From Ignavibacteriota bacterium (GTDB lineage: Bacteria > Bacteroidota > Ignavibacteria > UBA10030 > BY39), in contig QOQV01000003.1 of NCBI GenBank assembly GCA_003327435.1, forward strand, positions 124,001 through 188,000: 64,000 nt of DNA, given 5' to 3'. The position numbers were made by a program, and so were the translations under genes. Below are positions 16,186 through 30,963 of this stretch, one piece after another. Under the pieces are notes generated by a model. It was not told where the DNA came from. It made no database searches and saw only the letters and a program-made list of their open reading frames with translations. Positions within the stretch are counted from its first letter, which is position 1, and each line of letters starts with the position of its first letter.

Positions 16186-18957
16186 TTATTTTATCAAAAG
16201 AATTTTCTTCACTGATGTAAACTTACCTGCCTGCAATCTGTAAAAGTATACACCACTTGGTAAATTATCTGCATAAAATTTTACAGATTTATATCCAGCA
16301 CTTTGATACTCATCAATCAATTTTGAAACCTCTCTACCAAGCATATCATAAATAACAATTTTTACATTATTGTCTTCAGGTAAATCGTAATTAATAGTTG
16401 TCACTGAATTAAATGGGTTAGGATAGTTTTGATGTAAATAATATTTTTGAGGAACTTCCACGATAAAATCTTTAACATTTAACAGTACACTATCAGGTTT
16501 ATTAGAAAATACTTTTGCAGTATAACCGTCTATTACAAATGAAGGAACAGGAACTGCATCAACAGTAAATATACTTTGATCAAAAATATTATACCATTCA
16601 CCTATAGCCAACCAGGGAACATTTAATATTGTTTGTTGTGTTGTGCCCAGATTTGCTATACACATTACCATTGCACCTGATAATGTGTCTTCAAATCCCC
16701 ATACCAGCACCCTCTGTGTTTCATATCTATAAAGTTTACGCAGCTCACCTCTGAAAAGTGCAGGATTGTTTAACCTTTGGAATATCAGTTTTTTGTAATA
16801 CTGGTAGTGTGATTGACCTCGATCTGATGGATAGAGATAAAATTCAACAGGTCTATAGGAGAGTTTTTCATTATCATTTTGCCAACCACGAGGCGCACTG
16901 AATTCCATTCCCTGCCACAACATCGGAATACCAAGCGATGTGAAGATAAATGTTCCATAAAGTTTATCTCTTATCAATGCCTGTTCGAGTGGAACACCCT
17001 GAAATGTAATCATCTCATAAATTAAGGATTGCTCGTCGTGATTTACAGTAGCATTAACAGGTTCGGTTCGATTTGCATATCTCGAAGGCGAAGAAGGACT
17101 ATCGTTACCTGGATACGCACCTAAATCAATTATCAAATTTTCAAAAGTGGATAATGAACGATTTTTATAGATCACTTCCCAGAAAATTTCATCTCTAAAA
17201 CTATCGTGCCAGCCACTTGTAAGCCCGCTATAATAAAGAAGTGCTGGACTTTCCGGTAAATGTTCAGCAATTTGATAAATTTTACCGCCATATTCCTGAT
17301 GAATTTTATTTGCCCACCCTAAAATTCCCTTTGTTGGTTCACTGATGTTCCAACCAATACCCTGCGTCAAATCATATCTGAATCCATCAACTTTATATTC
17401 GTCAATAAACATTTTGAGTGCGGTATATACCAGCTCCTGAGTTTCAACTGCCCAGTGATCCAGGTCTTTGAAGAAACATAATTGATCCTCATTGTAATTA
17501 AGCTGATTACAGCGTTTGAAATATGGATTAATATCTTCATTTGGTGCCATTTGCCATAGTGCACTGGTTTCATTCAAATGATTAAATACTACATCAACAA
17601 TCACAGCAATACCTCTTCCGTGAGCTGAATCCACAAAAGTTTTAAAATCTCGTGGTGTACCATATCCAGGTTCTAACGACAGGTACGAATTCACATCATA
17701 ACCCCAGGAAAAACCAGATTTCCCAATTAAGCCATAATCAGTAATTGGCATCAATTCAATTGCATTAATTCCGAGTGAGTCCAGGTATGGTAGTGTCTCT
17801 ATCAGATGCAGGAAAGTTGCTTCACCAGCACCTAAATTTAGTTTTCCACCAGCAAACTCACCAACATTAAGTTCGTAAATTACAAGTTTGTTCAAAGGTG
17901 GGCGTTGAAAATCCATGTTCTGCCAAACATAATCATCAGCTGTTAAACCTGTTGAATCTGTAGAAAATCTACTACCATTTGTGCCATTCCATCTACCCCA
18001 TGGATCATAAATCAGTTTACCATTTTCTATTTCGTATAAATATTCATAAGTGCCTTTCGGAAGCTTAACATTAATCCACCATTCATTATTTAGAGTAGCT
18101 CGGCGCATTACAATCGGAGGTGCAGTTGAAGGTTGTTGTCCTAAAGGTGCAACACGCAAAAGCACATACTCCTTGCCTGGAACCAATATACGAAATGATG
18201 TCGAATCATTTGATGCTGAACTTGGTAGTGTAACCCCATGCTTTACATAAGCAGGCATAGGTAATGTCGGAATCACATAACCACCTCTTTTATAAACTAC
18301 GGAATCACCTTTATCATTATATCCTACCAGTCGAATAAAATATGATTTTGGTATTGGAGAACTCAATGTATAATCTAAAATCCTTGTTTGTGTATCGAAG
18401 TATTGAGTAACATCAATTGTAGTTCTTGGGGAAGATTCTGTTTGAGCAGTTGATAGTAAAATTGAAGTAATCGAATCGCTATTTGCATGAATAAGTGAAA
18501 TTGTAATTCTTGTAATTTGTTGTGAAACTTCAAATGCATAATATTGGAACCAGAACAAGCGCGTCATCCTGAACACAGAATTATTATAATCAGATGGATT
18601 GGTTTCAGGGTTCAATGGATCGCTATACCAGCCATCAATAGTTCCGCCACGATTGAATTTATACTGAAAAATAGAATCTGCCATTTTTCGTCGCGTATCT
18701 AATGGATCTTTTATCTTAAATGTGTAAGTTTTAACCCATGCTGATAAAGTATTATCATAAGTCATTTGTGAAGGTGCACCAGGATTGATTACGCCACCGG
18801 TATTTGGTCCCCAATTGTTGAATTCGCCTGGAACATATACAAGTGGTGATACCGGCTGGTAAGTTCTGAAAGTTACTGTTATACTATCCGACGGATTAGA
18901 AAAAATGTTGTGTATACAGATCACAGTTAAAATAAAAATCAAAACTTTGTTCTTCAT
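16186..18957 (-). CDS. T9SS-exported GH13 alpha-glucan hydrolase
   Basis: A 923-residue exported alpha-amylase superfamily enzyme. A signal peptide (VLIFILTVICIHNIFS) is followed by a starch-binding-like domain at about 26-115 (VSPLVYVPGEFNNWGP). A second beta domain follows at about 235-320. The GH13 barrel has VVFNHLNE, nucleophile D529 (GFRYDLTQG), acid/base E565 (IAEHLPESP) and D641 (VNHDEQ). The C-terminal 85 residues are a T9SS type A sorting domain (LHQNYPNPFNSVTTINY, then SGVYFYRLQAG). The CBM48-like N-terminus points to isoamylase, pullulanase or branching-type activity rather than plain amylase. It is expected on the cell surface or secreted. A ribosome-binding site (CAGGAGATGAT) precedes the ATG, 1 base after the upstream GH13 gene. 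Confidence 0.9.
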   Translation of the reverse strand: MKNKVLIFILTVICIHNIFSNPSDSITVTFRTYQPVSPLVYVPGEFNNWGPNTGGVINPGAPSQMTYDNTLSAWVKTYTFKIKDPLDTRRKMADSIFQYKFNRGGTIDGWYSDPLNPETNPSDYNNSVFRMTRLFWFQYYAFEVSQQITRITISLIHANSDSITSILLSTAQTESSPRTTIDVTQYFDTQTRILDYTLSSPIPKSYFIRLVGYNDKGDSVVYKRGGYVIPTLPMPAYVKHGVTLPSSASNDSTSFRILVPGKEYVLLRVAPLGQQPSTAPPIVMRRATLNNEWWINVKLPKGTYEYLYEIENGKLIYDPWGRWNGTNGSRFSTDSTGLTADDYVWQNMDFQRPPLNKLVIYELNVGEFAGGKLNLGAGEATFLHLIETLPYLDSLGINAIELMPITDYGLIGKSGFSWGYDVNSYLSLEPGYGTPRDFKTFVDSAHGRGIAVIVDVVFNHLNETSALWQMAPNEDINPYFKRCNQLNYNEDQLCFFKDLDHWAVETQELVYTALKMFIDEYKVDGFRYDLTQGIGWNISEPTKGILGWANKIHQEYGGKIYQIAEHLPESPALLYYSGLTSGWHDSFRDEIFWEVIYKNRSLSTFENLIIDLGAYPGNDSPSSPSRYANRTEPVNATVNHDEQSLIYEMITFQGVPLEQALIRDKLYGTFIFTSLGIPMLWQGMEFSAPRGWQNDNEKLSYRPVEFYLYPSDRGQSHYQYYKKLIFQRLNNPALFRGELRKLYRYETQRVLVWGFEDTLSGAMVMCIANLGTTQQTILNVPWLAIGEWYNIFDQSIFTVDAVPVPSFVIDGYTAKVFSNKPDSVLLNVKDFIVEVPQKYYLHQNYPNPFNSVTTINYDLPEDNNVKIVIYDMLGREVSKLIDEYQSAGYKSVKFYADNLPSGVYFYRLQAGKFTSVKKILLIK

Positions 18958-18958
18958 A

Positions 18959-20431
18959 TCATCTCCTGCTTATTAAAATAATTCCATTCATAGGTGGGAT
19001 GTTTTTAATATTGATAATTGTATTTTCCTGTTTATATTTTTTTCGACTCAGTACATCGTTCCATGTTTTGACACTTTTAAATGGTGATATCAATTTGAGA
19101 TTTTTGCATTCATTTGAATTGTTTAAAATAATAATAGCTTTTTCATTTTGAATTTCTCTTGTAAATGCATAAATATTGTTTTTTTGATCCTTGAGAATTG
19201 TATTAAAGTTTCCTCTCCTCAAAGAAGGAAACTGGTTTCGAATATTGATCAGTTTTTTGTAGTAATTTTGTAGATCTCTATTCCAACGGAGTGTATCCCA
19301 GAGCATAGTTCTTCTGCAATCTGGATCTTTACCGCCCATCATTCCAATTTCATCACCATAATAAATCATTGGTGCACCGATATAAGTCATTTGAAAAAGC
19401 ACCGCAAGCTTTACTTTTTCTATATTGCCACCCGTGAGGGTGAGAAATCTTTCGGTATCGTGGCTTCCTAACAGGTTTTGTAAAGCATATTGTGATTCAA
19501 GAGGATATTTTCTTGGGATAGAAAGTATGGAATCAAATTGATGAATATTTATTTTGTTAAAAACGAAATATAAGTTAACTGCGTCTCTAAAAAGGTAATT
19601 CATTACAGCATCGAACTGGTCACCTTTTAACCAGGGAGAGGCATCTTCCCAGATTTCGCCAACGATATAACAATCTGGATTGATTGATTTTACAAGTTTA
19701 CGCCATTCAATCCAGAAATCGTGCGACATTTCATTTGGTACATCCAAACGCCAACCATCAATCCCCATTTCGGTCCACTTACGAGTAGCATCAAATAGAT
19801 ATTTTCGCACATCTGGTTCATCGGTCATTAATTTCGGTAAATCACCAATTCCCCACCATGCTTCATAATTAGGTTTTGCAGGCGGAAGTTGAACAGGAAA
19901 ACTATGCACTTTATACCAGTGCAGATAACGAGAGTTTTTCTCGTTCTTAACAATATCCTGAAAAGCAAAAAAATCTATACCTGTGTGATTAAATACTCCA
20001 TCAATTACAACTCTTATACCTCTTTTATGACATTCCTCAATCAATTTCTTGAAAGTTTCATCATCACCGAAGTTATCATCAATTTGAAAATAATCTTTAG
20101 TATGATATTTATGGTTTGAATTTGATTCAAAGATTGGGTTAAAGTAAATAGCATTTACGCCTAAACTCTGAATATAATCAAGTTTCTGAATAACACCTTG
20201 AAGGTCGCCACCAAAATAGTTATAATATTTTGGATCTGCGCTCCAGTTTTCAACATTTGGTGGATCATTAGTTGTATCACCATTATAAAAGCGCTCAGGG
20301 AATATCTGGTAAAATATCGCATCTTTAACCCAATCAGGAACGAAACTATTTTGAGAATACAGAGATTGTGTAAAAGGTAAAATAAAAAGTACGAGTATCA
20401 ATCCTGTTAATTTCTTCATAATGATTCTCAT
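18959..20431 (-). CDS. exported GH13 cyclomaltodextrinase/neopullulanase-like enzyme
   Basis: A 490-residue GH13 enzyme with a signal peptide (LILVLFILPFTQSLYSQ). It has DAIFYQIFPERFYNGD at residues 37-52, VIDGVFNHTG (143-151), nucleophile D230 (GWRLDVPNE), acid/base E259 (IVGEIWEDAS) and D325 (LLGSHDTERF). The DVPNE form is typical of the cyclomaltodextrinase, maltogenic amylase and neopullulanase group (GH13_20-like). It lacks the N-terminal dimerisation domain of that group, and it has no T9SS tail, so it is likely periplasmic. The start at 20431 overlaps the M16 stop (ATGA); an ATG 12 bases further in is an alternative. It probably trims oligosaccharides released by the surface enzyme encoded next. 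Confidence 0.88.
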   Translation of the reverse strand: MRIIMKKLTGLILVLFILPFTQSLYSQNSFVPDWVKDAIFYQIFPERFYNGDTTNDPPNVENWSADPKYYNYFGGDLQGVIQKLDYIQSLGVNAIYFNPIFESNSNHKYHTKDYFQIDDNFGDDETFKKLIEECHKRGIRVVIDGVFNHTGIDFFAFQDIVKNEKNSRYLHWYKVHSFPVQLPPAKPNYEAWWGIGDLPKLMTDEPDVRKYLFDATRKWTEMGIDGWRLDVPNEMSHDFWIEWRKLVKSINPDCYIVGEIWEDASPWLKGDQFDAVMNYLFRDAVNLYFVFNKINIHQFDSILSIPRKYPLESQYALQNLLGSHDTERFLTLTGGNIEKVKLAVLFQMTYIGAPMIYYGDEIGMMGGKDPDCRRTMLWDTLRWNRDLQNYYKKLINIRNQFPSLRRGNFNTILKDQKNNIYAFTREIQNEKAIIILNNSNECKNLKLISPFKSVKTWNDVLSRKKYKQENTIINIKNIPPMNGIILISRR

Positions 20432-24579: not shown

Positions 24580-24608
24580 TGGGGCTAACTAAAATTAAGA
24601 TAGCCCCA
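24580..24608 (+). terminator. terminator between glnA and the cytochrome-porin gene
   Basis: TGGGGCTA (24580-24587) pairs with TAGCCCCA (24601-24608) over a 13-base loop and is followed by TTTTTA on the plus strand. It lies 26 bases past the glnA stop and 12 bases past the end of the convergent gene, so it may stop transcription from both sides; the T-run favours the plus strand. Confidence 0.8.
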
Positions 24609-24620
24609 TTTTTATTTCCA

Positions 24621-25787
24621 TTAGAAAGCAGTTACGAAACCAATAGTAATATTATTTGATTTTGCTTCTAAATCGTAACCATATTCAAACATTAATTTTA
24701 AATTTCTGGCAAGCAGATAACTAAAGTTACCTGCTATTGAGTGATAATTGAAATAATCAGATTTGATTTTATTATACAACAAAAATAAATACCACTTGCT
24801 TTTATCACCTTCCGGTGCATACATTAGTTCGGCAAATCCCCCGCGAGCAATCTGTGAATGTTCGGTTTCAGTGAAGTCAGGATTTGTATCTTTTCTATAA
24901 AGAAACTGTCCACTTAACTCGAATGGTTCAAATTCAAGACTGAAATCAGCACCAAACATATTTATATTGTTAATGAATTTACCGGCAGGTTCCACTCGAC
25001 TTTCTTTACCAAGATATGCAAGAGTACCAATTGAAATATTATCACTCACTGATTGTGCAACTCTGAAGAAAAAGTTTTTATAGGCATCATCATCGAAACC
25101 GAAATCGCTTGCAGGTCCTATTCCGTTGCCGTTAAGAACAGAGGCAAACAAATCGGTACCGGTTGGTAATGTATAATTTAACATTAAACCACGATCATAA
25201 GTCAAATCTGCTTTTGATTTTTCTGGTTTAATTTTATAAGCCCAGTAATCCTCAAATGTTGGTCTTAGTTCTCTCTTGAATATTGGATCTGCAACCTGAT
25301 ATTGTCCGACCATTAAATCAAATTCTTGATTAGCAATGTTATTGAAATAAATAAAAGCATCTTCAACACCTGCTATTTCACCTCTTTCATCGAAGAGAAA
25401 GTAAAAAAAGTAAGATATGTCTTTTGCAATTTGTCCACTTGAAAGAATTTTTATTATAAATGGCCATTCAATATCGGATTTGGGTTCATTTTTCTGTTGA
25501 TAGCGTGCAAAACCATCAATTCTGAGTGCAAGCGGAAGTTCACGCATAAGAAGCAAAAAATCGTCACCTGTTTCCCGAGTAAATCTCGGAGCTTCTTTAT
25601 CCTTGAGTTGATAGGCATTAGCCGCGAACTCATTACCGTAAGGTTTCAATTTAGGAACTGGTGAATGACAAACATTGCACGACATATCATATTTCCGAGC
25701 GTAAGCCGGAATTGACTGAAGTTGTTGAAAAACAAAAAGTACTAAAATAATGGTAAATAAAATCACTTTGAATAAATTTTTCATCAT
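24621..25787 (-). CDS. Cyc2-like fused cytochrome-porin
   Basis: A 388-residue outer-membrane protein with one haem c site at its N-terminus. After the signal peptide (VILFTIILVLFVFQQLQS) comes PAYARKYDMSCNVCH, with C37-x-x-C40-H41, then PKLKPYGNEFAANAYQ. This matches the pattern of Cyc2-type fused cytochrome-porins (P-x-F/Y-A-R ... CxxCH ... P-x-L-x-x-F/Y-G). The rest (about residues 70-388) is alternating beta-strand sequence ending in Phe, as outer-membrane barrels do. Cyc2 oxidises Fe(II) at the cell surface in iron oxidisers, but relatives with the same motif occur in organisms not known to oxidise iron, so the substrate is open. It is 13 bases downstream of a pentaheme cytochrome gene, with a ribosome-binding site (AAGGAAA). 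Confidence 0.78.
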   Translation of the reverse strand: MMKNLFKVILFTIILVLFVFQQLQSIPAYARKYDMSCNVCHSPVPKLKPYGNEFAANAYQLKDKEAPRFTRETGDDFLLLMRELPLALRIDGFARYQQKNEPKSDIEWPFIIKILSSGQIAKDISYFFYFLFDERGEIAGVEDAFIYFNNIANQEFDLMVGQYQVADPIFKRELRPTFEDYWAYKIKPEKSKADLTYDRGLMLNYTLPTGTDLFASVLNGNGIGPASDFGFDDDAYKNFFFRVAQSVSDNISIGTLAYLGKESRVEPAGKFINNINMFGADFSLEFEPFELSGQFLYRKDTNPDFTETEHSQIARGGFAELMYAPEGDKSKWYLFLLYNKIKSDYFNYHSIAGNFSYLLARNLKLMFEYGYDLEAKSNNITIGFVTAF

Positions 25788-25800
25788 TCATTTCCTTCTT

Positions 25801-27147
25801 TTATTTTACAATATTTATTGTTGTTTCGTGAAAATTCACTTCAATTGGCTCTGCTTCCTCCATAGGAACACCTAAAAACTCGGCAACAGGTCCAGGAAGT
25901 TTTTGGTAGTACATTGTAGCCCTAACAGTTAAATTTCCAGGTGCAATATCTCCTGGAATTGTCCAGGTAAATGTTTCGATTTTAGTTTCCCTTGGTCCAA
26001 TTCTATAATCAACACCGTGCGAAGCGGTATTCCATTGCATAATAGTCATACGACCCTGCGGATCAAGATAAGGCAATCTAAAAATTCGGTCACCTTCAGG
26101 AACTCCATCTCTTTGAATTCCTTTGAAATCTGGAATATTAAGCGGTATGCCCATATCCTGATAAGCCAGGGTATTGGTTGCAATCGTGTACTCTTCACCA
26201 GCAAAACCTTTTTTATCAACTTTGAGGTGATAGGTTTTGCCTTTGGAATCTTTGGCTTCAACATGTAACCAGAGAAGTCGTTCTTCTGCAGAACCGGTTG
26301 GGAATTTATGTCCAGTTTTCTGATTGAATATTGCGCAGGTAAATTTAACCTTTTCTCCTGGTTCTACTTCTCTGATATCAGGATGAATTCTCAATTCAAC
26401 CACTCCTCTAACCTTACCTGGGTCGTGAGCGCCGTGGAAGAGATGTTGTGCAACATCTGGTAATTCAGGACCCATAGAAGCGTTACTTCCTTTTGCAAAG
26501 GTCATATGACAATCCTGACACTTGACACCTTCTTTTGAATAAGGTCCTTCCTTCCATTCAAGGTGAGTTGATTTTACCCATACATCATAAGGACTTTTTT
26601 CGTTGTGACAGGTTCCACATAACTCAGCTGTTTTGTGAAATTGTGAGTAAACAGTTTTATGAGCTGGTGAAACAGCACCTTCTCTGTTTCCATATTTTGT
26701 TTTCCCCGGTTCAGAAATATAATTGAAATTATAAGGGATATCTCCTTTAAAACCTGTAATTGTATGACATACATCGCAAGAAACTGACTCATTAGCCCTG
26801 CTATTTGCTTCTGGTTTTGGCGGTGGAACATCACCAGCAAGAAACGCAATTGGAGAATGACAACCATTACATCCAGCTTTTACTCCAGCCACTTTTGGGT
26901 CTTTCTCAGCATGCGGTACAGCAAGTTTGAAATACTCAATTTCATCCCAATGGTGAGTATATGCCTGCGACATCATTGCCTGTTTCCATTGTTGGTAAAA
27001 ATCGATATGGCAGGAACTGCCACAAACTCCAGGTTTTTCAAAGTCATCATACTTCCTACTACCTAAAGCTTCATCCCCAGCTTTCTTTTCCTGTGTATAA
27101 ACGGTCAAACTAACAAATAACCAAAAAAAGTAAAATATTTTTTTCAT
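25801..27147 (-). CDS. pentaheme c-type cytochrome, exported
   Basis: An exported multihaem cytochrome of 448 residues, from the ATG at 27147. That start is chosen because AAGGAG lies 6 bases upstream of it; a TTG at 27162 would add five residues. Four standard CxxCH sites are C93-H97 (CNGCH), C124-H128 (CDVCH), C177-H181 (CGTCH) and C210-H214 (CQDCH). A fifth near the N-terminus is unusual: C42-G-S-S-C46-H47, that is CX3CH. Several His residues (H65, H66, H79, H163, H171, H195, H235) could be distal ligands. The C-terminal 200 residues are a beta-sandwich-like domain without haem. It is likely periplasmic and the natural electron partner of the cytochrome-porin encoded directly downstream. 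Confidence 0.85.
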   Translation of the reverse strand: MKKIFYFFWLFVSLTVYTQEKKAGDEALGSRKYDDFEKPGVCGSSCHIDFYQQWKQAMMSQAYTHHWDEIEYFKLAVPHAEKDPKVAGVKAGCNGCHSPIAFLAGDVPPPKPEANSRANESVSCDVCHTITGFKGDIPYNFNYISEPGKTKYGNREGAVSPAHKTVYSQFHKTAELCGTCHNEKSPYDVWVKSTHLEWKEGPYSKEGVKCQDCHMTFAKGSNASMGPELPDVAQHLFHGAHDPGKVRGVVELRIHPDIREVEPGEKVKFTCAIFNQKTGHKFPTGSAEERLLWLHVEAKDSKGKTYHLKVDKKGFAGEEYTIATNTLAYQDMGIPLNIPDFKGIQRDGVPEGDRIFRLPYLDPQGRMTIMQWNTASHGVDYRIGPRETKIETFTWTIPGDIAPGNLTVRATMYYQKLPGPVAEFLGVPMEEAEPIEVNFHETTINIVK

Positions 27148-27209
27148 ATGATGCTCCTTCAATTTGTTAAAGTTGCTGTAATGTAAAAAATTTCTAAAAC
27201 AGAATCAAA

Positions 27210-28829
27210 CTATTTTACCAATATCATTCGTCGCGTAAAGCCAGGTGTTTGATTGTTAAGGATATTTTCTTGAAGAACACTCAACTTATAATAATAAACC
27301 CCACTTGCAAGTTCAGTACCGTCAAATATAAAATTATATATTCCTGCGATTTTATATCCCTCAAAGAAATTTTTTATGAGTTGACCAAACAAATTATAAA
27401 CTTTAATACTAACATAACCAGCTTCATTAAGTGTGTATTGTATATTTGTTGAATTGTTGAACGGATTAGGATAATTTTGATATAATTGGTAAGCGTAAAT
27501 ATTGTTAAATTCTTCTCTAATATCTAATTCTATAAAATTTATTCTACAGGTCCATATCTGATAAATTCCTGTTGAATTGTCCATCCACACCGGCAATATA
27601 ATATTACCTGAAGATGTGATATTAATATTATCCCCTTGGTAACCCTGTCCCAAACCACCAATTGGTTGAGGTTTAAAATTGTGATCACTAATTTCATATT
27701 CATTCCAGGTCTCACCACCGTCTGTTGAACGTGCTAAAAATACACCTGTTGAATCACTTGTTGTGTTTCTATCATCATAAAAAATAATATTTATTCCACC
27801 CAGATCATCCACATGAATTGCAGGAAAATACTGTATTTTACCATTATTCAAAGGATCTTGATTTACTCTGATACCAGAAGACCAGCTTAATCCTTGATTT
27901 GTTGAACGATAAAGTATTATATCAGGATCATTGCCAGCTGGAGTGTTATTTATTTGTGTTGTTACTATGTATATGTAACCCTTTCTTGGTCCGTTACTTT
28001 TGTCAACATCTATTCTTGGTAAACCATTAACTCGTATATTTGCTTTCTGGTTCAAAACTCCTGCAATTCCGTTGATATCAATTATATTTTCTTTAACGAT
28101 CCAGCTGTCGCCGCCGCTGGTGGAGTAAGCAAAACCTACAAAATCTTCTGTAAAAGGTGAAGTTGGAATAACTCCAGCCCAACAGGCATAAATTTGACCT
28201 TCAGGACCAATTGCTGCATCACCACCCTGACATCTCTGTACAGGACTGTTTACCTGTTTTGGTTGTGTCCAATTTTTTGCCCCGTCATCTGTATAAGAGA
28301 AAACTACTGGAAAGGGTGGTGAAAATTGTACCCAAATTGCATAAGTTCTTCCATAATAATTACTTGTTGGAATCACATCCGAAATCAGTGCTGCACGATC
28401 CTGATCCTCCGATGCAATTTGCTTTTGTATTGACCAGCTTACACCATTATCAGTGGAATAGTGAGAATAAAGACCAGGTATAAATCCAAGTCTTATCAAA
28501 ATAAAAGTTCCGTTTTTATCTATAGCTATTCCTGGATCACCTCTATGAAAATTAATCGGAGCACCTTTACAGGTATCACTTCCATACCAGTTAACACCAG
28601 CATCAGTCGAAACATAAATACCTTCGCTTATAAAACCAGTGCTTAAATTGATAGTATTTGCACAAGCAAATAAAATTTGTGGCTGTATTGGATGGCGAAC
28701 AATAAAAGTCTCAGATTGTGTTACATTACTTGGATATATCCTAAAATTGTACCATTTGCTGTTTTTCTCGCCACCAATACAGCTTGCAACTAAAATTAAT
28801 GAAATAAATATTTTAAAAACTATAGCCAA
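27210..28829 (-). CDS. T9SS-exported BNR/sialidase-like propeller protein
   Basis: A 539-residue exported protein of BNR (sialidase-type) repeats. Asp-box motifs are seen as STDAGVNWYG, STDNGVSWS, STSGGDSW, STNQGLSWS and STDGGETWNE, the mark of a six-bladed propeller. The C-terminal 90 residues are a T9SS type A sorting domain (YQNYPNPFNNSTNIQY, then SGVYYYKLSV). Real sialidases need an Arg triad and catalytic Tyr/Glu that I cannot assign, so enzyme activity is uncertain. The only start giving a signal peptide (FKIFISLILVASCIGG, possible lipobox VASC) is TTG at 28829, which overlaps the TonB receptor gene by 17 bases and implies coupled translation. Confidence 0.82.
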   Translation of the reverse strand: MAIVFKIFISLILVASCIGGEKNSKWYNFRIYPSNVTQSETFIVRHPIQPQILFACANTINLSTGFISEGIYVSTDAGVNWYGSDTCKGAPINFHRGDPGIAIDKNGTFILIRLGFIPGLYSHYSTDNGVSWSIQKQIASEDQDRAALISDVIPTSNYYGRTYAIWVQFSPPFPVVFSYTDDGAKNWTQPKQVNSPVQRCQGGDAAIGPEGQIYACWAGVIPTSPFTEDFVGFAYSTSGGDSWIVKENIIDINGIAGVLNQKANIRVNGLPRIDVDKSNGPRKGYIYIVTTQINNTPAGNDPDIILYRSTNQGLSWSSGIRVNQDPLNNGKIQYFPAIHVDDLGGINIIFYDDRNTTSDSTGVFLARSTDGGETWNEYEISDHNFKPQPIGGLGQGYQGDNINITSSGNIILPVWMDNSTGIYQIWTCRINFIELDIREEFNNIYAYQLYQNYPNPFNNSTNIQYTLNEAGYVSIKVYNLFGQLIKNFFEGYKIAGIYNFIFDGTELASGVYYYKLSVLQENILNNQTPGFTRRMILVK

Positions 28830-30963
28830 TATTTAAAATTCCGAAGTAGTTTCTTGGCTCACCAGCTTCATAATATTCTTTCCTGTCTGAATTTATATTG
28901 ATAAAGCCAACATACTTTTTGTTAAGCAAATTATTTACACCACCCGAGAGCATAATATTAAATTTACCTAACTTGATATCCGTACCAATCAAAAAGTTCA
29001 ACAATTGATAACTCTCTGTTTCCTCCGTATTTGCATCATTAACATACATACTGCTTACAAATCGATCACTAACTTTTACAAATCCTACAATATCTTCCAC
29101 CAGAGGTTGTTCGTATGAAACTGCTAAATACAAATTATGCTTTGGTACACTGGGGACATACTTACCCGAATATGGAATATCAATTACCTTTGTAATACTA
29201 TCAATTCTTGCTATATATTCATCGTACTTGAAGTTTGAAAAGGCATATGAGAGTTTGAAGTTAAGATTCTTATAAATATCCACATCTGAACCAAGCTCTA
29301 TACCGAATCGGTTTGTTTTAGCTGCATTTCTATAAAATACACCAACACCCGCTACATCAAACGGGACAATTTCATCTTTTATTATGTAATTAAAAACTGC
29401 AGCTTCAAAATTAACTTTGTTAAAGAAAGTCCACTCATCAAAAAGCAAATTTCCTTTAGAACCAATTTCCATTATTGTAGATTTTTGTGCTTTTAAATCG
29501 GGGTTCAAGAGTTTTGGATATGTAGAGCTTGTCGGATAATTATCAAGCTCATTTCCAGCAGGTGAATCAAAACTTAAACCATATGAGGCAAACAAAGCTA
29601 TTGAAGGCAAAATTTTATAATTCAAGGCAATCTTTGGTGTAAAGGCCTCATAATTTCTATTATCACTTCTGGCATCAAGACCTCTATCCTTATCTTCAAA
29701 CTTAACTTTATCAAAGCGACCTGATAAAAGTAAACTTAACCTGTCTTGAATTAAATCAGTGGAATTTAATATGTAAAAACCTGCATTAGAGGTACGATCA
29801 TCGACGAGCGCTTTTACACCATCACCCCGTCTCCCATTGATATTATCATAAGTTTCAACCGGACCATATTGTAAGAAGAGATCACCACCAAGTGAAAACT
29901 CATTTTTTAATTCAAATAAATGAGTATGGTTTATATACCTTGCTGATGCACCAAGTACATTTCTATTCATTATACGGAAATCTTTAGCAGTTCTTTCAAA
30001 ATTTTTCACTGCAATGTAACCAGTCAATTCAAATTCATTATTTTTATTTTCTCCGAAAAATTTGTTGTAACTTATTCCTAAACGTCCCTTCTTTGATACT
30101 CTTCTTGTATCACGACTTATATCTCTCGGATTTGCCTGATATGGATCATCATTAAATTGAGCTTTTGTTAACGAACCAGGTAATTTTATTAGCCCATCAA
30201 CATAATATGTGTAAATGTTGACCTTTGTAAATGGATCCGGAGTTGCCTGTAAAATTGAATTAATAATGTGCCAGTAATCCTGGCTATGAGCACGATAACC
30301 TTTATAATTGTGATAACTATAAGTTAGTAGAAATTTAAAGTTATCGGCAATCATTCCGGTTTTAAACCCGTTTCTTGACAGGCCGTATGATCCAATTTCG
30401 TTAAAATTTACAAAGAAGTTCTTATCAAAATTAATATCGTTCAGGAAATTGATTACACCACCTGGAGCATTAGTGTAAAGAGAAGACAGATTCCCTCTTA
30501 CCACTTCAATCGAACCAATAGAATTGAAATCGATGGCTTCAATTCGTGTCTGCCCGTCAGGTTCTGATTCTGGAATTCCATCAAGTAAAATCCTTACACC
30601 TCTAATACCGGAATTGGATCTGCTTCCAAATCCACGTATTGATATCCTGACATCATGATTTCCATATCTATTTTGCATAAAAAGCCCTGGCACATCGTTC
30701 AATACATTATCCACTGCAATTTTACTGTCGAATTTAAAATTGTAGTTGTCGATTTTCTGAATTGGATAAGGAACATCAATAATCTTCTTTGCAGTTCTTG
30801 TGCCAGTTATAACAACCTCATCAATTAGATAAACTTTTGCAGTGTCCTGTTGATCATTATAACTTACCTCATTACCGGATAATATTTCATTTGAGAGGAT
30901 ATTAGTTTGATCTAACATTATAACGAAAATGAATGTTGCTAATTTTTTGATAAAATATTTCAT
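28813..30963 (-). CDS. TonB-dependent outer-membrane receptor, FecA-like
   Basis: A 716-residue TonB-dependent receptor. A signal peptide is followed by a TonB-box-like stretch (IDEVVITGTR, residues about 48-57). The plug domain has DVPGLFMQNRYG, VRISIRGFGSRS, ILLDGIPESEPDGQTRIE and SIEVVRGNLSSLYT. A barrel follows and ends in IGYSF with the terminal Phe. The plug wording resembles the FecA/PupB siderophore-receptor group, so iron-chelate uptake is the leading guess. No FecR/FecI regulators or TonB are nearby. It is the first gene of a minus-strand run that continues into the BNR protein and two cytochromes, with a 117-base upstream gap that would hold the promoter. Confidence 0.9.
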   Translation of the reverse strand: MKYFIKKLATFIFVIMLDQTNILSNEILSGNEVSYNDQQDTAKVYLIDEVVITGTRTAKKIIDVPYPIQKIDNYNFKFDSKIAVDNVLNDVPGLFMQNRYGNHDVRISIRGFGSRSNSGIRGVRILLDGIPESEPDGQTRIEAIDFNSIGSIEVVRGNLSSLYTNAPGGVINFLNDINFDKNFFVNFNEIGSYGLSRNGFKTGMIADNFKFLLTYSYHNYKGYRAHSQDYWHIINSILQATPDPFTKVNIYTYYVDGLIKLPGSLTKAQFNDDPYQANPRDISRDTRRVSKKGRLGISYNKFFGENKNNEFELTGYIAVKNFERTAKDFRIMNRNVLGASARYINHTHLFELKNEFSLGGDLFLQYGPVETYDNINGRRGDGVKALVDDRTSNAGFYILNSTDLIQDRLSLLLSGRFDKVKFEDKDRGLDARSDNRNYEAFTPKIALNYKILPSIALFASYGLSFDSPAGNELDNYPTSSTYPKLLNPDLKAQKSTIMEIGSKGNLLFDEWTFFNKVNFEAAVFNYIIKDEIVPFDVAGVGVFYRNAAKTNRFGIELGSDVDIYKNLNFKLSYAFSNFKYDEYIARIDSITKVIDIPYSGKYVPSVPKHNLYLAVSYEQPLVEDIVGFVKVSDRFVSSMYVNDANTEETESYQLLNFLIGTDIKLGKFNIMLSGGVNNLLNKKYVGFININSDRKEYYEAGEPRNYFGILNIGYSF

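Follow-up and report, generated by a model that had tools for sequence, protein, structure and literature searches.

Homologues of the cytochrome-porin Cyc2 serve as a genomic marker of iron oxidation, and many of them are encoded by organisms that are not known to oxidise iron, in which the authors defining the family call their role open (Keffer 2021, PMC8406198). The same work reports a likeness of Cyc2 to the porins OprO and OprP. A two-part system of another kind is found in Geobacter, where the pentaheme cytochrome ExtKL is encoded with the porin ExtI in a cluster that has a part in reducing Fe(III) and Mn(IV) (PMC6148476); loss of extI lowers reduction of selenite and tellurite and leaves that of Fe(III) citrate unaffected (PMC5877670). 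ExtKL has been joined with the pentaheme cytochromes of cable bacteria and with cytochrome c552 in the PHC family, which has a C-terminal immunoglobulin-like domain (PMC11976967). Cyc2 homologues have already been published for metagenome-assembled genomes (MAGs) related to Ignavibacteria (PMC6344600, PMC8478452), as have porin-cytochrome complexes of the OmbB and MtrB types for Ignavibacteria (PMC7399161, PMC6137239). Here we analysed 64,000 nucleotides of an Ignavibacteriota genome (GCA_003327435.1, contig QOQV01000003.1, forward strand 124,001-188,000; this whole stretch is called the window, and its numbering is used throughout), which encode a pentaheme cytochrome and, directly behind it, a Cyc2-like cytochrome-porin. 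A pairing of a Cyc2-like porin with an ExtKL-like pentaheme cytochrome was not found described in the literature searched, which was covered mostly at title level and through openly accessible texts without supplements.

To define orthologues of the two proteins we searched the same 245 genomes of the class with the porin and then with a cytochrome profile, using thresholds of E < 1e-50 for the porin (next match at 1.9e-37) and E < 1e-60 for the cytochrome (next match at 1.8e-36). A porin orthologue was found in 53 genomes and a cytochrome orthologue in 52; both were present in 52 genomes, the porin alone in one (G130), the cytochrome alone in none and neither in 192 (Fisher test 8.5e-53, uncorrected for kinship). 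The cytochrome gene lies directly upstream of the porin gene on the same strand in 51 of the 52 genomes with both, the sole exception being G120, where an open reading frame (ORF) for an 825-residue TonB receptor stands between them. When the genes flanking 63 loci (ten or so of which hold distant porins) and the window were clustered, no gene cluster besides the cytochrome and the porin recurred in more than 11 of the 64 neighbourhoods. Neighbours change between families, and common flanks are seen within a single family, for example at loci L045, L060 and L062. It could be argued that the two genes are chance or decayed neighbours with no joint function, as the pair is patchy in the class and is broken in one relative of the window's genome (G150, see below). 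However, near-perfect co-occurrence and adjacency, kept at divergence down to 42% identity while the flanks change, make this highly improbable. We conclude that the cytochrome and the porin form a conserved two-gene unit in one class.

A porin tree of 51 rows (quick IQ-TREE run, support by the Shimodaira-Hasegawa-like approximate likelihood ratio test only, locus L031 left out) required 13 changes for 14 family labels, which is the minimum possible; f13 and f3 were the only families that did not make up one side of a branch, f13 holding one f20 row and a named MAG. Because the tree follows the genome families with the fewest changes possible, we conclude that the pair has been inherited mostly vertically within the class and often lost, and has not spread recently. 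When 395 genomes sampled from the phylum were searched, strong cytochrome matches (E < 1e-60) were seen in 25, all of the same class, and only two genomes of other classes (about 297 by an inferred count) gave a match, at 2.8e-12 and 6.5e-11. In a plasmid collection the porin had no match at E 0.01; the cytochrome had 13 weak ones, of 21.7-27.2% identity, none of which reached 80% coverage.

In the window the pair is preceded by genes for a TonB-dependent receptor and a propeller protein with a type IX secretion system (T9SS) sorting domain, making up a run of four minus-strand genes (Table 1). A sequence-only reading of the locus had proposed that the whole run may be one outer-membrane conduit with an iron-linked, FecA-like receptor. 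An iron operon of receptor, surface propeller, cytochrome and porin would account for the single strand and the short spacings, for the recurrence of the order in G150, which is of the same genus, and for the presence of another TonB receptor next to the cytochrome-porin pair in three f21 genomes. We found, however, that the two halves of the run part company elsewhere. Among the genomes of the order common to both searches, a strong propeller match (E < 1e-150) was obtained in nine, and the receptor adjoins the propeller in all nine, with the order reversed and about 0.9 kb in between in G102 and G023. The cytochrome-porin pair is absent from five of these nine genomes (G234, G043, G184, G146 and G109) and sits on a different contig in G102 and G023, so that all four genes stand in a row only in the window and G150. 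Since the receptor and propeller occur without the pair or away from it in seven of nine genomes, we regard them as separate from the conduit.

The G150 locus points the same way. At this locus (L034 9117-11164) a deletion of 454 bases takes haems 3 to 5 out of the cytochrome gene and causes a frameshift, and the porin gene contains an in-frame TAA; the receptor and propeller ORFs are open. These two lesions, limited to the cytochrome and porin, fit decay of that pair alone, an assembly fault also being possible. For the receptor itself, plug and barrel score above the Pfam cut-offs; the best NCBIfam model is PqqU (250.9 bits against a cut-off of 1200), and as the FecA model reaches only 47.9 bits the FecA identity was rejected. 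The sorting domain of the propeller is of type A and exceeds the cut-off in both Pfam and NCBIfam, and BNR models fall slightly under their Pfam cut-offs. We conclude that the four-gene run consists of two modules, receptor with propeller (module A) and pentaheme cytochrome with porin (module B). A four-gene conduit was thus rejected, a single four-gene iron operon is improbable, and what stands of the sequence-only reading is that cytochrome and porin belong together and that the porin is Cyc2-like by the criteria below. Module A is a conserved pair in the order, possibly a capture-and-import unit. It was located at window 27210-30963 and at G043 C17, G184 C89, G234 C394, G146 C107, G109 C27, G102 C48 and G023 C45 (genome and contig).

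In order to characterise the porin, the window protein was aligned with 46 of the 51 full-length porins, giving 47 rows (L031, L032, L035 and L038, which are copies, near-copies or the second named MAG, were left out, and so was L085 for its great divergence). The published Cyc2 motif (Keffer 2021) in its strict form, AXPXFAR[QK][TY] with CXXCH and PXL, is present in 30 of the 47, and a relaxed form (first residue free, F/Y, A/G/S, PX[LV], spacings of 3-5 and 3-4) in all of them. The window porin has only the relaxed form, with S for A, Y for F, and three residues between motif and CXXCH where five are stated for Cyc2 (PMC8406198). The aligned proteins are 382-407 residues long with one CXXCH each, as expected of Cyc2 homologues, which carry a single haem and have at least 365 residues. 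The model of the window porin has 16 long strands, with a mean predicted local distance difference test score (pLDDT) of 78.2 and a predicted template modelling score of 0.75, and OprP and OprO are among its nearest solved structures. The modelled porin forms a barrel of 16 strands, in type like OprP/OprO and the general porins, and in motif, length and barrel it fits the published sequence and fold criteria for Cyc2 homologues; the N-terminal position of the single haem site is a further likeness to Cyc2 and Cyt572. The Cyc2-like porin proposed from the sequence, with CNVCH set between PAYAR and PKLKPYG and a C-terminal Phe, is therefore upheld as to motif and predicted fold, and its N-terminus, read as a signal peptide, is hydrophobic.

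The porin (mean column identity 55%) is most conserved in strand 6 (0.80), followed by the haem region (0.79) and the long loop behind strand 5 (0.75). This loop has six invariant residues, D166, P167, K170, E172, R174 and Y180, and is placed like the constriction loop L3 of porins, whose role it may share. Of the His residues in the family only that of the CXXCH is invariant, and the start is the sole conserved Met; a sixth haem ligand, if any, would therefore not be a conserved His or Met. Pfam searches of the family matched BBP2 in four of the 47 (best 1.2e-6), and a sequence search of the PDB with the porin gave no convincing match.

The cytochrome alignment comprised 29 rows, namely the window and 28 of the 30 sequences that passed a motif filter (L031 and L035 were left out as near-copies); the other loci failed the filter or were fragments, the complete ones having four or five CXXCH. 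It can be seen that the cytochrome is better conserved than the porin, at a mean column identity of 73% over its 29 rows against 55% over 47, and that all five haem motifs are invariant (CX2-3CH and four CXXCH). The window protein itself has one CX3CH and four CXXCH, the five haems that had been read from it. The ExtKL model NF040886 matched all 29 at E <= 0.001 (best 5.6e-18), the window row scoring 40.3 bits, under the cut-off of 250, which was compared for that row only. A profile search of the PDB gave the pentaheme c552 of T. tepidum (5ze8) as best match, at E 8.1e-10 in three collinear pieces. The AlphaFold model of the cytochrome is poor (mean pLDDT 54); a fold search with it also ranked 5ze8 first (2.8e-11, TM-score 0.28). 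Geobacter ExtKL and T. tepidum c552 are thus distant relatives of the cytochrome. Like c552 and the cable-bacteria sPHC of the PHC family it has five haems and a putative C-terminal beta domain; unlike the PHCs of cable bacteria, which have no nearby porin gene (PMC11976967), it always has a porin as partner. Outside the haem motifs there are six invariant His and two at 97%, a count suggestive of bis-His ligation for all five haems. Elsewhere in the window's genome (G000 C18:302064-424985) there are four more Cytochrome_C554-family matches, three of them within 35 kb and one in a 943-residue frame.

A potential explanation for the fixed pairing is that the cytochrome and the cytochrome-porin act together as an outer-membrane redox conduit of two proteins, working in either direction. 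We consider this probable on account of the two-part layout that the pair shares with ExtI/ExtKL, here with a haem built into the porin. The N-terminal haem c would sit inside the barrel near its periplasmic mouth, and the soluble pentaheme cytochrome would dock below and exchange electrons with a small redox-active solute entering the pore; candidates are soluble Fe(III) complexes, other metal species and humic-type quinones. The comparison with described systems is close on some points and not on others. As in the Geobacter extHIJKL cluster, the gene for a porin of the OprO/OprP sort is accompanied by one for a periplasmic pentaheme cytochrome, and the two cytochromes belong to one wider family; however, ExtI is haem-free whereas the window porin carries a haem motif, and no counterpart was seen here of the rhodanese lipoprotein ExtH, of ExtJ or of the ExtKL selenocysteine (the closest neighbours of the pair loci, not all of them annotated, showed no rhodanese-like gene). 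MtrAB and OmbB-OmaB-OmcB likewise combine a porin with a periplasmic multihaem cytochrome in a trans-outer-membrane conduit, but the barrel here is far smaller, with 16 strands and its own haem, the partner has five haems rather than eight to twelve or more, and the conserved unit includes no outer-surface cytochrome and no third gene. From Cyc2 and Cyt572 the window porin differs in forming a strict pair with a pentaheme cytochrome. The partners described for Cyc2 in the literature consulted are rusticyanin, Cyc1/CycA1 or HiPIP.

As to direction, we tentatively lean towards an outward flow, from periplasm to outside, at somewhat short of even confidence. One reason is that the relatives of the pentaheme cytochrome, c552 and ExtKL, are low-potential or reductive while the Cyc2 haem lies at +208 mV; c552 is called 'low-potential' in the title of a work cited by PMC11976967, and the value of 208 mV, for Cyc2 of PV-1, is from the only neutrophilic Cyc2 haem measured (Keffer 2021, PMC8406198). 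By this analogy electrons would run downhill on their way out. The other is that three genomes with the pair, G136, G090 and G151, gave no match to the haem-copper oxidase family PF00115, in a search that did not extend to other oxidases or to nitrate pathways. Several points weigh against an outward conduit of this kind. The three Cyc2 proteins that have been characterised work the other way round, as oxidants of Fe(II) (Keffer 2021, PMC8406198). A haem-copper oxidase match is present in 50 of the 53 pair genomes, and the window's genome gave no match to a NapC/NirT-type quinol cytochrome at E 1e-10. In the porin model, the haem segment (residues 24-44) has a pLDDT below 50, so that the model gives no position for the haem within the barrel; OprP (Z 24.7) and OprO (24.6) are tied with Omp32 (24.1) in VIA-align, and Foldseek lists general porins first (Omp36), with OprO at rank 15 and OprP at 40. 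The similarity to ExtKL is weak (40 of 250 bits), tetra- and pentaheme domains being common. Across the class, NapC/NirT matches were found in 31 of the 53 pair genomes and in 48 of the 192 others (odds ratio 4.2, p 1e-5, uncorrected for kinship). A link of the pair to aerobic respiration was also considered, and was set aside as uninformative because PF00115 is matched in 232 of the 245 genomes.

The same pair could work inwards in the manner of Cyc2, the porin oxidising Fe(II) and passing electrons to the pentaheme cytochrome. Besides the Cyc2 motif, length and fold of the porin, the activity of the characterised proteins and the oxidase in most pair genomes, this would agree with FeGenie-based work that assigned Cyc2 homologues to Ignavibacteriales MAGs (PMC8478452), and with the two genomes of the sister genus g2, both of which have a co-directional NRAMP-family gene immediately upstream of the pair, at distances of 134 and 279 bases (L035 7062-8486, L036 5312-6604). 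However, transfer from a haem at about +200 mV to a low-potential pentaheme cytochrome would be uphill if the potentials resemble those of the relatives, the three genomes in which no haem-copper oxidase was detected fit poorly, and the Cyc2 authors themselves caution that function is uncertain outside the well-studied clades (Keffer 2021, PMC8406198). We therefore hold inward Fe(II) oxidation to be the less likely direction. Our search for transporters near the pair covered three gene types at 56 porin loci, and three lineages were found to carry a co-directional transporter gene by the pair: the window's genus (receptor and propeller), g2 (NRAMP) and f21, all three genomes of which have a CarboxypepD-reg TonB receptor, placed downstream in L065 and L067 and between the two genes of the pair in L073. 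Such transporters keep a metal substrate plausible and do not show one; iron as the substrate is not supported.

A third possibility is gated uptake, in which the porin admits a soluble oxidant such as an oxyanion for periplasmic reduction by the pentaheme cytochrome, and the pore haem senses or pre-reduces this oxidant. A view of this kind has been discussed for ExtI/ExtKL with selenite and tellurite (PMC5877670), where the porin concerned is a haem-free member of the OprO/OprP family, and it would suit both the VIA-align ranking, tie included, and the conserved charged loop after strand 5. On the other hand, simple uptake needs no haem inside the porin, and the conserved His suffice for five bis-His haems, leaving no sign of an open catalytic haem in the sequences, so that we consider gated uptake unlikely.

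Returning to the outward conduit, a fuller form of it is that a Cyc2-type conduit ancestral to the whole class has an ExtKL/c552-type pentaheme cytochrome feeding a pore haem, which reduces small solutes in the barrel. This is possible, and we put it below the outward direction as such. If this fuller form is true, the Cyc2 superfamily is no marker of iron oxidation, and two conduit families thought to be separate share one machine. One Cyc2-like clade in organisms of this sort has a fixed partner, so that two defined proteins are at hand for expression and measurement. The pair also counsels caution where iron oxidation is inferred in this class from Cyc2 matches, as in PMC8478452.

Fixed redox partners seem to differ among the cytochrome-porin paralogues of the class. 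In L090 (G060 C263) and L093 (G130 C48) a paralogue is followed by genes for plastocyanin-like, cupredoxin/CoxII-like, Rieske and cytochrome b proteins, with response regulators upstream, a layout reminiscent of those leading from Cyc2 to a bc complex. In L088 (G085 C83) and L091 (G196 C162) one lies directly behind a gene for a dihaem CCP/MauG-type peroxidase (Pfam for L088 only), and in L087 (G072 C1) the gene following one encodes two cytochrome c domains, and genes resembling a phosphate (Pst) transport operon lie alongside. Distant cytochrome-porins stand behind an OmpA/PD40-propeller protein in L085 (5983-8612, G244) and L086 (G233; Pfam for L085 only), both genomes having distant pentaheme relatives on other contigs.

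The features of the window locus are listed in Table 1.

Table 1. Coordinates of the four genes, their haem sites and domains, and the hairpin behind them
Feature	Position in window	Strand	Basis
TonB-dependent receptor (module A, outside the conduit)	28813-30963	-	Pfam, NCBIfam, genome search
Propeller of BNR type with a type A sorting domain for T9SS (module A, outside the conduit)	27210-28829	-	Pfam, NCBIfam
Pentaheme cytochrome, ExtKL/c552-like, 448 residues (module B)	25801-27147	-	Upstream of porin in 51/52 genomes
Haem 1, CGSSCH (CX3CH; CX2CH in some relatives)	27007-27024	-	Motif scan, alignment
Haem 2, CNGCH	26857-26871	-	Motif scan
Haem 3, CDVCH	26764-26778	-	Motif scan
Haem 4, CGTCH	26605-26619	-	Motif scan
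Haem 5, CQDCH	26506-26520	-	Motif scan
C-terminal beta-rich domain with invariant GHKxPxGS	25810-26406	-	Alignment; collinear 5ze8 match; poor model
Cyc2-like monohaem cytochrome-porin, 388 residues (module B)	24621-25787	-	Orthologues in 53/245 genomes; barrel model
Cyc2-type haem setting, SIPAYARKY...CNVCH...PKLKPYG	25635-25715	-	Motif in 47 aligned orthologues
Single CXXCH haem c site, CNVCH	25665-25679	-	Its His is the family's only invariant His
Long loop after barrel strand 5, residues 164-195	25200-25295	-	Model and alignment
Hairpin between the porin gene and a convergent glutamine synthetase gene	24580-24608		Folding against shuffles

The list of ORFs confirmed the four genes of the sequence-only reading and their spacings, a 17-base overlap followed by gaps of 62 and 13 bases; the overlap of receptor and propeller hinges on a TTG start for the propeller. 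The cytochrome most plausibly starts at ATG 27147, which is preceded by an AGGAG-like site, the mechanical call being TTG 27162. A hairpin, which had been placed near 24590, was recovered behind the porin gene with a folding energy of -16.7 kcal/mol (z -2.5; 3 of 200 shuffles folded equally well), and a terminator scan called no site there. Terminator-like and promoter-like sites in the region number 4 against 3.4 expected and 31 against 29.2, no more than chance; because the counts are close to expectation, the scan says nothing on operon structure. At 16186-20431 of the window lie two adjoining genes of the alpha-amylase family, the larger of which encodes a T9SS sorting tail.

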